Part shown: in pieces, positions 1 to 5,951 of the stretch
How positions within the stretch are numbered: position 1 is the stretch's first letter
Layout: every line of letters starts with the position of its first letter
Source of the DNA: an uncultured Flammeovirgaceae bacterium
Lineage (GTDB): Bacteria; Bacteroidota; Bacteroidia; Cytophagales; Cyclobacteriaceae
Direction: 5' to 3'
Assembly (NCBI GenBank): GCA_946886805.1
Contig: CAMPJM010000188.1
Coordinates: 1-7,469, forward strand
Length of the DNA: 7,469 nucleotides
The notes under the pieces: model-generated
What the model was told of the DNA's origin: nothing
Seen by the model: the letters and a program-made list of their open reading frames with translations, nothing else
Database searches by the model: none
Program-made: the position numbers and the translations under genes

Positions 1-1458
1 CAACAGAATATCTTCTTTAATCAAATAACTAAAATCTAATTCTTTAATCGTTTTTTGATGATTGTTGTTGTTTGGGTATAACAGTTGAATAGCCTGTTGA
101 TATAAATCTCTATTCCTCAATTCAGGGTGAAAGTTCTTCTGGTTTTTATAAATAACATCTAATTCATCCCGATAATAATCTCGTTCGATAACTGTGATTA
201 AACCTCCTTTAATTTTTTGCTTTGGATTTTTCAGTAGGCTGCAATAAACAAAGGAAGCAATGCCTTTGGTGTTGTTTTTTGCATTGAACGAAGTGAGGGA
301 AGTTTCAGTCTTTAATTTCATCAAAGTCCAGTCTTCTTCCTTAGGAATATTGATGTTTCTACCTTTATCAGCCCCTTTTAAAATCCTATAGCCTTTCTCA
401 TCATATCTTGTTTTAATGATAAAATCGCGATTAGTATTCTTCCATTTAGGCCAGAACTTGCTTTGTTGTTCTTTTATCCAACCAGTTTCCAATTCGACTT
501 CAAAAACAAAATTGTCCTTTCTTTTCTGACCTGTATTACGAACATCAGTTATCAAGAACTCACGGACTTCATTAATGAGATATTCTGTTTTCTTTGTATC
601 AATCGTACCCTCGTCATTATATTTCGAAACAATTTCAACTTCTTTCAAATCTCCAATTTCAGTAATTGCAATTTTTGTTTCTTCCTTATATTTGAATAGC
701 TCTGTGTTCTCATTATTGCTATCCACCAAAATAATTTCATAAGCATCCTCACCCTTAATTTTACTCGCACTTTTTACTTTGCCTACAAAAGTATCTATCA
801 ATTCACCTTCTTTCTGCACTTTTTCATCTTGACCAATTACTTTTTCATAGCCTCTTTTTTGATTAAAACTCAAGGTAATCCAAGCCAGTTGCTCTTTTGT
901 TAGTTCAAAATGTTTATCAGTAACTGCCTTATGTCGCAAATAATATAAGGTCCAGTCGTAAGGTATTTTTGTTCGTTTGCCATTTTTCTTTTGGTAAAAC
1001 ATTTCTGGATAGCGCTTTTTAAAATCACTTTCCATTTGATTATAGGCATCCATAAACAAGAAATGGTATTTACCTTCTTCGTCCTTATAATAAGCAAGCT
1101 TTTCTTCCGTTCCTTTTTTAAATTTACCACTCCGTTTACCTTTATCATTCTCAAATTCAATAGATAATTTATAATGCTCAGGAAGCGAGTTCAGAAGATT
1201 CAAAACACAATGAAGCCTATCTCTTCTTAGTAAATATCTTTCATTTAATTTTCTTGGCGAGTGTTTAGTCGTTCTTTCAGCCGCGGCACTATCAATTTTG
1301 GCTCCACTTTCAAATTTTGAAATTTCTCCAGCATCCATTGTAAGAATCCGAGAACCAAGACCTAATATTTTTACTGTTCTGTTTTCGTGGTCTATCTCAA
1401 CCAGTGCCCATCCAATAGAGTTCGTCCCTAAGTCAAGTCCAAGTATGGTTTTTTTCAT
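1..1458 (-). CDS. cas9: Cas9 endonuclease, N-terminal 486 residues (gene continues off the left end)
   Basis: This is the N-terminal part of the RNA-guided DNA endonuclease of a type II CRISPR-Cas system, which uses a crRNA:tracrRNA duplex to find and cut invading DNA. The frame is open from the ATG at 1458 to base 1 with no stop, exactly 486 codons. Residues 5-20 (ILGLDLGTNSIGWALV) are the RuvC-I motif, with D9 as the catalytic aspartate. Residues about 60-90 form the arginine/lysine-rich bridge helix (ERTTKHSPRKLNERYLLRRDRL at its core, listed here in part: PRKLNERYLLRRDRL). REC-lobe motifs typical of Cas9 follow: YDWTLYYLRHKA (167-178) and SFNQKRGY (197-204). RuvC-II, HNH, RuvC-III and the PAM-interacting domain lie outside. 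Bacteroidota relatives are usually about 1,400 residues, so roughly a third is visible. A tracrRNA gene is divergent just upstream. The subtype is probably II-C, inferred from the Bacteroidota style; cas1/cas2 and any csn2 cannot be seen. Confidence 0.96.
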   Translation of the reverse strand, partial: MKKTILGLDLGTNSIGWALVEIDHENRTVKILGLGSRILTMDAGEISKFESGAKIDSAAAERTTKHSPRKLNERYLLRRDRLHCVLNLLNSLPEHYKLSIEFENDKGKRSGKFKKGTEEKLAYYKDEEGKYHFLFMDAYNQMESDFKKRYPEMFYQKKNGKRTKIPYDWTLYYLRHKAVTDKHFELTKEQLAWITLSFNQKRGYEKVIGQDEKVQKEGELIDTFVGKVKSASKIKGEDAYEIILVDSNNENTELFKYKEETKIAITEIGDLKEVEIVSKYNDEGTIDTKKTEYLINEVREFLITDVRNTGQKRKDNFVFEVELETGWIKEQQSKFWPKWKNTNRDFIIKTRYDEKGYRILKGADKGRNINIPKEEDWTLMKLKTETSLTSFNAKNNTKGIASFVYCSLLKNPKQKIKGGLITVIERDYYRDELDVIYKNQKNFHPELRNRDLYQQAIQLLYPNNNNHQKTIKELDFSYLIKEDILL

Positions 1459-1496: not shown

Positions 1497-1575
1497 TCAA
1501 AGAATAAGCAAATCACAATAAGGATTATTCCGTTGTGAAAACATTTAAGGTGGGGATAAAACCTCGCCTTTTTTT
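1497..1575 (+). ncRNA. tracrRNA of the type II CRISPR-Cas system
   Basis: This is the trans-activating RNA that pairs with the CRISPR repeat part of the crRNA and anchors it in Cas9. Three parts can be seen. The anti-repeat (about 1497-1519) includes AAGCAAATCACAAT, the reverse complement of ATTGTGATTTGCTT; Bacteroidota type II repeats are known to begin GTTGTGATTTGC. The nexus (1520-1534), AAGGATTATTCCGTT, has a GGA/TCC mini-stem with a TTAT loop. It parallels the S. pyogenes AAGGCTAGTCCGTT segment. A terminator hairpin with T-tract (1548-1575) ends it. The 5' end is predicted from a -33/-7 promoter, giving an RNA of about 75-80 nt; a longer primary transcript starting further upstream is possible. 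The adjacent divergent cas9 supports the call. The partner repeat array is not in the window. Confidence 0.88.
1548..1575 (+). terminator. Rho-independent terminator of the tracrRNA
   Basis: The 8-bp stem AGGTGGGG (1548-1555) with CCTCGCCT (1562-1569) closes on the loop ATAAAA. It pairs fully in RNA if two G-U pairs are allowed, and a T-run continues to 1575. In a tracrRNA this hairpin normally doubles as the 3' stem loop bound by Cas9. Confidence 0.88.
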
Positions 1576-3790: not shown

Positions 3791-3887
3791 TTTCCGGCAA
3801 TCGTTGTTAGCAAAAAATCCTTTTTATCCAATAATCCCACGAATCCTGATTAAGACAAAAAAGTGCTGAAGTGACTACTAGCACAAG
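3791..3887. repeat. Dispersed intergenic repeat, copy A
   Basis: This is the first of two diverged direct copies of an element of about 95 bp; the second begins at 4028. Both share a TTTCCGG start, a GCAAAAAAT block, the exact 19-base core ATCCAATAATCCCACGAAT (3826-3844 here), a GA-TT-AGACAAA segment, a GTGCTGAA block and the end AGCACAAG. There is no reading frame in it. The core resembles a type of intergenic sequence widespread in Bacteroidota genomes; that comparison is from memory. Confidence 0.65.
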
Positions 3888-4027: not shown

Positions 4028-4121
4028 TTTCCGGACGACCGCACGCAAAAAATTTTTTTCATCCAATAATCCCACGAATTCAGATTCAGACAAAGGTGCT
4101 GAAACCAACTACAAGCACAAG
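4028..4121. repeat. Dispersed intergenic repeat, copy B
   Basis: This is the second direct copy of the element described at 3791. The identical 19-base core is at 4061-4079, followed by CAGATTCAGACAAAGGTGCTG-like sequence (4081-4101) and ending AGCACAAG. The copies are about 235 bases apart in the same orientation. Confidence 0.65.
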
Positions 4122-4236: not shown

Positions 4237-4512
4237 TTACTCCGCAATTGGTGCAGCTGGTTCTTCAGCATTCATTTCTTCTTCGTTTTTAATAGCATCT
4301 GATTCAGTTCCTACAGCATCAGTTTCAGTCTCAGAATAATCAGCATCACTTGCAGGAGCCTCAGTCTCAGTAGCTTCGATTTCCTCAGTAGCTTCAGTTT
4401 CTGTAGCTTCTGTCTCTGTTGGCTGATAAACGTCTGAATCCTGTGCATCTTGTGCAAATACTGCTGTAAAACCTAATAACGCAATTCCGAAGGTCAAAAA
4501 TACTTTTTTCAT
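4237..4512 (-). CDS. Small exported acidic protein with Thr/Glu repeats
   Basis: The protein has 91 residues. Residues 1-20 (MKKVFLTFGIALLGFTAVFA) are a clear Sec signal peptide, with signal peptidase I cleavage likely before Q21. There is no lipobox cysteine, so the mature protein of about 71 residues should be released to the periplasm or outside. It holds 25 Asp/Glu against one Lys, no Cys or Trp, and is almost certainly disordered. Residues 32-52 are built of repeating TETEA / ATETE / ATEEIE units (bases 4357-4419). Further TE and SD pairs follow, then a proline/alanine end (AEEPAAPIAE). I recognise no domain. Small acidic exported proteins of this look occur in Flavobacteriia; calcium binding or surface buffering would be guesses. 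It is transcribed alone, with a strong terminator 50 bases downstream. Confidence 0.8.
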   Translation of the reverse strand: MKKVFLTFGIALLGFTAVFAQDAQDSDVYQPTETEATETEATEEIEATETEAPASDADYSETETDAVGTESDAIKNEEEMNAEEPAAPIAE

Positions 4513-5360: not shown

Positions 5361-5951
5361 TTAATTAAATTTCGAAAACTTATTTTCAAGACTGACTAGC
5401 CAATTTTCTCTTTTCTTCTGGCTTACTGATTTTACAGAAGCAAAATTTATCCAATTAAGATTTTTGTAGCCCATGGTTTTAAAAACACTTTTTAACATTG
5501 CTTTCTTGATTAAATTGCCAATGAGCAGGGAATACATTATTCTGGGTTTATTCATTGTAGTGATTATTGTTACGCCTTTTAGGGTCACTAAAAGTGGTAC
5601 CAATCCAAAACCTCGTGGGTGGTGGTCATAGACAATTCCCGGACATAGAACTCGGTCAATAAATCCCTTGGTCATCGCCGGCATCAAATCCCACCAAATT
5701 GGAAAAATAAAAATCAGGTGGTCTGCTTTTTCCAAACGCTTGTTATAGTCGATTACTTGCGGATCGATTGGCTTGTGTTCCACAAAGGCTTTTAAGTCTG
5801 CCTTTGACATTGCAGGATTAAATCCGTCATTGTCAAGGTGCATAAGGTCAACTTCGTGGTTTGCTTTTTGAAGCCCTTTTGTTACTGAGCTTAGTATTGC
5901 ATTGTTATAGCTTCGCTCGTAGGGATGATTAAATACTATTGCTACTTTCAT
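5361..5951 (-). CDS. Flavodoxin-fold NAD(P)H-dependent oxidoreductase (NQO/MdaB/KefF-like)
   Basis: The protein has 196 residues, typical for this family of FMN/FAD quinone reductases, which pass two electrons from NAD(P)H to quinones or similar acceptors. The first strand and phosphate loop, KVAIVFNHPYERSYNNAI (2-19), match the family's ...HP..SFN.A start. FIFPIWWDLMPAMTKGFIDR (81-100) is the diagnostic segment that holds the flavin and forms the dimer face. A G-F-G stretch and the strand GVTIITT (126-132) follow. There is no signal peptide, so it is cytoplasmic. It lies 79 bases downstream of a Crp/Fnr gene and 14 bases upstream of the DUF4405 gene. A perfect 12-bp inverted repeat ends four bases before its start codon, which suggests local transcriptional control, perhaps by that regulator. 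The precise acceptor is unknown. Confidence 0.9.
   Translation of the reverse strand: MKVAIVFNHPYERSYNNAILSSVTKGLQKANHEVDLMHLDNDGFNPAMSKADLKAFVEHKPIDPQVIDYNKRLEKADHLIFIFPIWWDLMPAMTKGFIDRVLCPGIVYDHHPRGFGLVPLLVTLKGVTIITTMNKPRIMYSLLIGNLIKKAMLKSVFKTMGYKNLNWINFASVKSVSQKKRENWLVSLENKFSKFN

Follow-up and report, generated by a model that had tools for sequence, protein, structure and literature searches.

The left end of the DNA analysed here (the window, 7,469 nt) carries the start of a cas9 gene, and the first-pass annotation had placed a compact tracrRNA with a Streptococcus pyogenes-like nexus beside it. This raises the question of whether the sequence is a tracrRNA gene and, if so, of what kind. 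We conclude with high confidence that a Bacteroidota CRISPR-Cas9 locus of type II-C has its tracrRNA gene here, at 1506-1575 (+) and divergent from cas9. All the named parts were found there, in the order and on the strand that had been claimed. The anti-repeat AAGCAAATCACAA (1506-1518, +), whose predicted partner is a repeat with (G)TTGTGATTTGCTT, is followed directly on its 3′ side by the nexus TAAGGATTATTCCGTT (1519-1534, +; pairs G1522-C1531, G1523-C1530 and A1521-U1533), the arrangement of a type II tracrRNA. A mini-hairpin, TGTGAAAACA (1534-1543, +; UGU-GAAA-ACA), sits between the nexus and an intrinsic terminator, AAGGTGGGGATAAAACCTCGCCTT (1547-1575, +), whose 9-bp stem (1547-1570) and following T-run provide the 3′ hairpin and terminator typical of these RNAs.

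The fold of 1492-1576 was estimated at -22.8 kcal/mol (z -3.78), and none of 200 shuffles was as low. Three terminator-like sites were counted on the two strands of 1300-2100, against 0.4 expected, the one in the tracrRNA having the most pairs. For the 25-mer at 1514-1538, shuffles of the window gave 0 expected matches even with 3 mismatches. The covariance-model check that had been proposed came out empty, Rfam 15 giving 0 matches up to E = 1 for the window tracrRNA. TAnnTTTG, the -7 box of Bacteroidota, is named as a Bacteroidetes promoter motif in PMC10309648, and the promoter-like sequence TATAATTG (1486-1493, +) differs from it at one position; this level of match was reached by 60% of shuffles and is uninformative for the window alone. 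The exact motif was present upstream of the tracrRNA in 36 of 62 regions, versus 6.7% of shuffles. It also occurred inside 8 of the 31 repeats from exact-core loci, versus 6% of single-base shuffles, which is suggestive of promoters within repeats in some loci only.

The neighbouring gene was then characterised. The N-terminal part of cas9 occupies 1-1458 (-), comprising the first 486 codons with the remainder to the left of the window, and the 47 bases between its start (1458) and the anti-repeat (1506) place the tracrRNA beside cas9. The fragment matched TIGR01865 with E 4.4e-24 (84.8 bits, a partial protein under the 100-bit cut-off), and the PF16593 bridge helix was above its cut-off. It was 85-86% identical to the 1670-aa Cas9 of locus L011, the closest relative of the window in the Cas9 tree, and is like a large type II-C Cas9. 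No CRISPR array is present within the 7,469 nt, and the window shows the cas9 N-terminus only; the features that define subtype II-C (cas9-cas1-cas2-array without csn2 or cas4) were looked for in L011 and L009. In both, one or two ORFs separate cas9 from a type II Cas1 (TIGR03639), after which come Cas2 (TIGR01573) and the array. Among the eight proteins scanned from these two loci, none matched csn2, and the only cas4-related matches were below-cut-off ones of cas4g_cas1g to both Cas1 proteins. The extra genes between cas9 and cas1 differ: L009 (15029-15826) encodes a protein whose match to REP-associated tyrosine transposases falls short of the cut-off (54.2 of 80 bits), and L011 (14835-15741) encodes a DUF6036 nucleotidyltransferase-like protein, barely above cut-off, along with one of 134 aa that could not be convincingly assigned to a family. 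A PIN domain is the annotation given to PcrIIC1 in PMC13153721; scanning the three additional proteins from these two loci gave no PIN match, thus no sign of PcrIIC1 there.

The conservation of the tracrRNA was examined in relatives. GTDB species genomes were scanned with the window Cas9 fragment, yielding 21 first-round loci. The exact 25-mer CACAATAAGGATTATTCCGTTGTGA (window 1514-1538) lay divergent from cas9 in 18 of the 21, and L021 carried a form with two base changes, also divergent, bringing the core to 19 of 21; the contigs of L004 and L018 leave 127 and 2 bases ahead of the cas9 match, and no core was visible in them. Allowing up to 3 mismatches, one core copy was found in 12 of 13 genomes searched and two in G013. 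For a wider set, 395 genomes of the phylum Bacteroidota were searched for Cas9; 65 were above the cut-off, and 63 Cas9 regions were taken from 62 of them. Together with the window and the 21 loci of the first round, L052-L114 (62 Cas9 regions plus one region for the second tracrRNA of G013) make up 85 sources. A core of the general form CACA[AG]NAAGG..CCG was present in 60 of the 85, and in 41 of these 60 the copy adjoining cas9 was the exact 25-mer of the window. Of 41 rows tested, 40 had a terminator-like hairpin 3′ of the exact core. The remaining 25 sources (L004, L018 and 23 others) had no core; among the best-ranked Cas9s listed, theirs had reading frames of about 880-1,180 aa, and among the arrays listed, theirs had 36-nt repeats. 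The tracrRNA identity, strand and module order proposed for the window hold in relatives.

Some loci carried additional copies. In L093, two tracrRNA cores were 6.4 kb apart, at 11627 (-) and 5223 (-). L113 had two in tandem, at 5435 (-) and 5366 (-), the second with a broken anti-repeat and pairing at just 9 of 16 positions. Three extra tracrRNA 3′ tails (AAAACATTTAAAGCGG-like plus terminator) stood in tandem 3′ of the gene in L103, at 10877, 10976 and 11070 (+), 94-99 nt apart and separated by a TTAAATGTTTCACGAAC-like sequence; extra tail copies were also seen in L001 near 4396 and 3′ of the tracrRNA in L007 and L090. The TTAAATGTTTCACGAAC-like motif was confined to the tail locus in G317 and G001, gave one distant match in G298 and none in G006 or G344. 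Among plasmids, a tracrRNA-like match lay directly beside an annotated cas9 in Persicobacter plasmid pPP11 (L134), and another was found in a Phocaeicola plasmid (L135), in a region without annotation in its record.

A tracrRNA should match the repeat of its own array. The first-pass annotation had predicted a repeat start of (G)TTGTGATTTGCTT, and this was borne out in L011, whose 13-nt anti-repeat is identical to that of the window and whose array repeat starts with GTTGTGATTTGCTTTC (in longer form, GTTGTGATTTGCTT). Arrays were found in 49 core-bearing sources; in 15 of these 49 the repeat started with exactly the 14 bases of L011, and in 39 it started with GTTGTGA. Repeat length was 46 or 47 nt in 34 of 40 window-type rows. 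Pairing was assessed on 31 distinct repeat/anti-repeat combinations from window-type loci, at repeat positions 8-17 beyond the shared start, with repeats dealt among loci in the shuffles; repeat orientation was set by the best pairing with the own anti-repeat and retained in the shuffles. Own repeats paired at 277 of 310 positions, compared with a shuffled mean of 244.7 (sd 3.5), and none of 5000 shuffles was as high. Anti-repeat and repeat had changed jointly in L003 (GAAAGGAACTCACAA with GTTGTGAGTTCCTTTC), L021, L085 and L099, and with one mismatch remaining in L020 and L088. Leftover mismatches were seen in many relatives, chiefly at the outer end of the duplex. Directly observed are the modules with their order and conservation and, across relatives, the co-change of repeat and anti-repeat. 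Past the 13 shared bases, the anti-repeat reads AAGAATAAGC in the window versus TTGAAAGC in L011, so pairing with an L011-like repeat would end after 13 pairs; the window's own repeat may differ from that of L011 beyond this point.

Two candidate structures compete for the same bases of the RNA. The two nexus G-C pairs were invariant in all 52 distinct aligned tracrRNAs and the A-U pair was kept in 49 of 52; the G-C pairs give no covariation because they never vary. In the mini-hairpin 94.8% of cells were paired, and one pair had changed on both sides (U-A in 43, A-U in 8, other in 1), the eight A-U rows belonging to variant groups, partly with longer middle hairpins. For nexus and mini-hairpin together, 96.5% of cells were paired in the 52 sequences and the covariation score exceeded all 500 shuffles; two of five measures, pairs changed on both sides and further pair types, were not above shuffles. 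Sliding the partners by 2 columns lowered the score from 0.098 to 0.080. The covariation support for the mini-hairpin is thus modest, coming from one pair.

Alternatively, the free tracrRNA could be a conformational switch in which the anti-repeat is hidden through pairing of TCACAA with the repeat-like TTGTGA after the nexus, to be opened by the incoming repeat. This pairing dominates the predicted fold of the free RNA (pair probabilities 0.86-1.0), it can form in 92.6% of cells of the 52 sequences, and both segments are almost invariant in the window's group. However, none of its pairs shows a change in both partners, one pair is broken by single changes in as many as 9 of the 52 sequences, and its covariation score of 0.012 is shuffle-like (reached by 29 of 500). 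L109 keeps this anti-repeat end, yet GTAGGAAGC replaces TTGTGA, and the mini-hairpin, which uses the same bases, does show some, though modest, covariation. For lack of covariation, the self-sequestering pairing was rejected as a selected structure, and we regard a switch as improbable. The working form preferred on this evidence consists of anti-repeat duplex, nexus, mini-hairpin and terminator.

That the tracrRNA is decayed or orphan and its locus inactive could be argued from the array being outside view, the anti-repeat departing from that of L011 past 13 bases and the promoter box being one base off; yet the core is intact, as are the mini-hairpin and the terminator, and the 486 visible Cas9 codons are open at 85-86% identity to L011, and we consider decay very unlikely. 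That a plain terminator hairpin or an unrelated small RNA beside cas9 looks like a tracrRNA by chance can practically be dismissed: the nexus motif with 2 mismatches matched 335 of 395 genomes, with control counts alike by eye, making it useless as a tracrRNA finder, but the full 25-mer has 0 expected matches, adjoins cas9 in 18 of 21 relatives, with a variant doing so in one more, and comes with anti-repeats that match their own repeats (277 of 310 positions vs 244.7 shuffled).

For the tracrRNA reading, by analogy with known type II systems, an RNA of about 75-80 nt would be transcribed from a start near 1497 to the terminator near 1575. Its anti-repeat (1506-1518) would pair with the 13-14 bases at the start of the CRISPR repeat, and the nexus and the small GAAA hairpin would be held by Cas9. 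Trimming of the duplex, as known for type II guides, would then give the mature dual guide.

The kind of tracrRNA was considered next. AATAAGG and TCCGTT around the nexus are common to the window and to the tracrRNA of S. pyogenes (type II-A). The surprise expressed at finding such a nexus with a Bacteroidota Cas9 was unwarranted, as sgRNAs of clades VIII and X are already described in PMC7606464 (Gasiunas et al. 2020) as structurally analogous to Spy-like ones. That description gives clade X Cas9s 45-50 bp repeats, and likeness to this clade lies in the long repeats of the relatives, the short nexus, the 3′ hairpin and the Spy-analogous structure; we infer clade X from repeat length rather than from a tree with the sequences of PMC7606464. 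The same account gives the Spy tracrRNA two further hairpins after the nexus. The window RNA has one 3-bp mini-hairpin plus terminator and a Cas9 closest to CbCas9, and thus is not of the S. pyogenes type (II-A). CbCas9 (PDB 8iyq, 8wmh and others) is the closest solved Cas9 both to the window fragment (E 4.5e-79) and to the Cas9 of L011 (E 1.1e-251), with 1442 aa versus 1670 aa in the latter. Compared on the anti-repeat alone, the putative tracrRNA of Riemerella anatipestifer CRISPR1, described in PMC5006608 with anti-repeat TGAAAGCAATTCACAA upstream of cas9 and a 47-nt repeat, belongs to the same anti-repeat family as the relatives, the window having AAGCAAATCACAA. Fp2Cas9 of Flavobacterium psychrophilum is described as type II-C with 46-bp repeats and a tracrRNA gene that adjoins cas9 save for an inserted IS982 (PMC10309648, PMC12609912); a 99-nt tracrRNA supports its in vitro cleavage, the essential part being nt 25-64 (PMC12609912). 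Its likeness to the window tracrRNA is one of descriptions rather than base by base. The window RNA is therefore an ordinary tracrRNA of a known kind, and its Spy-like nexus is not new. The core 19-mer AAGGATTATTCCGTTGTGA, sought in DNA and RNA letters, was absent from the main texts (as distinct from supplements) searched. For the CbCas9-related Cas9 group (~1670 aa in L011), a likely guide RNA and a predicted repeat start are set, and guide RNAs could be designed ahead of RNA sequencing.

The core was compared with the divergence of the Cas9s that it accompanies. Among 39 Cas9s of more than 1000 aa adjoining the identical 25-mer, the median pairwise identity was 39%, 41% of the 741 pairs were below 30% and the minimum was 24% (L019 with L073). 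A Cas9 tree, built by a quick method with SH-aLRT support, requires one change between the window type and the 36-nt-repeat group S36 when variants are left out, and five between the window type and all others. Nine S36 Cas9s with a common core of their own had a median identity of 35% and a minimum of 29%. S36 behaves like the window type, indicating that the combination of a near-frozen core with a fast-moving Cas9 is general here and not specific to the window. For Flavobacteriales, PMC12669027 reports that cas9 has been exchanged in place (Extended Data Fig. 9, legend), and a common guide core would presumably ease such exchange. Tentatively, and short of an even chance in our estimate, the core may be a guide standard of Bacteroidota II-C systems in which cas9 is swappable in place while the resident tracrRNA and array continue to function, and phage sgRNA-like RNAs, built of a repeat-like arm, a loop, an anti-repeat-like arm, nexus and tail, may occupy or redirect the host Cas9. 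If so, the window RNA would be interchangeable among very distant Cas9s and a target of RNA-based counter-defence. The letter-perfect core makes guide interchangeability over such Cas9 distances testable, and with it a possible role in the in-place exchange of cas9.

The core sequence also reveals phage sgRNA-like RNAs that were left unannotated in phage records. Searched with the window tracrRNA, phage records gave weak matches in five Riemerella phages (E 2e-3 to 2e-2) and in two Listeria phages (0.9). A second search from one Riemerella phage match returned 14 records, 11 of them Riemerella; coverage of the query was 80% or more in nine, of which two are the same phage, RAP44. The unannotated, intergenic sgRNA-like stretches of CRP19 (L130, 1456-1690), PJR4 (L131, 1360-1682) and RAP44 (L151, 821-1142) are three sequence versions, each near a DNA-binding-protein gene and an integrase. 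They contain a hairpin, TTGCGAAATG..CATTTCGCAA or TTATGAAATG..CATTTCATAA, joined to the tracrRNA nexus and tail, reading AAGGA.TATT..GT.G, and the two hairpin forms differ at two base pairs, in each of which both partners have changed. In CRP5 and CRP6 the match is confined to the 3′ part. In the prophage-like contig L119 (IMGVR_UViG_2903131571_000001; 8100-8330, the core ~49.6 kb into the record), a repeat-like GTTGTGAATT is paired with AATTCGCAA, linker and terminator are intact, and the nexus has an insert of ~30 nt able to form two small hairpins. Judged by their sequences, these phage and prophage RNAs look like natural single-guide RNAs. In 84 cas9/tracrRNA regions, the best matches of the phage guides were no better than those of shuffled guides. 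Counted without a control, the L119 guide matched the loci set once over 20 nt with 3 mismatches, exactly over 14 nt at two places (one of them shared by two overlapping loci) and once over 14 nt with 1 mismatch. No description of a free-standing phage sgRNA was found in the literature searched (main texts of freely accessible papers); a phage Cas9 with its own tracrRNA is described in PMC10910872 and repeat-mimicking Racrs in PMC10651486, and the search on phage-encoded tracrRNA or sgRNA also found a review (PMC11656645).

Other viral records contained the tracrRNA or parts of it. In IMGVR_UViG_2700988695_000002 (L115 at 432, L120 from 4582 onward), cas9 is accompanied by a tracrRNA whose sequence gives way, after GTTGTGAAAA, to DNA with phage-like genes; either a prophage has inserted into the tail of the tracrRNA or the contig is rearranged. 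The tracrRNA of L115 as a site-specific integration site was rejected, as neither a PF00589 integrase match nor the other junction was found in the record. L136 (~82-99, IMGVR_UViG_2920168565_000005) has the anti-repeat and core with one changed base (TTCTGTTGTGA), diverges just after TTGTGA and is without the usual tail. In IMGVR_UViG_3300013936_000003, an ORF whose integrase match stays below the cut-off ends ~230 bases from an intact tracrRNA (L117, ~1031-1055); cas9 had no match in L117 or in 40 of the 61 kb of this record.

Elsewhere in the window, a 91-aa ORF (4237-4512, -) without a family match is rich in Glu/Thr/Ala repeats and has a hydrophobic N-terminus. Two 50-nt copies, 88% identical and 235 bases apart, are located at 3810-3859 and 4045-4094.
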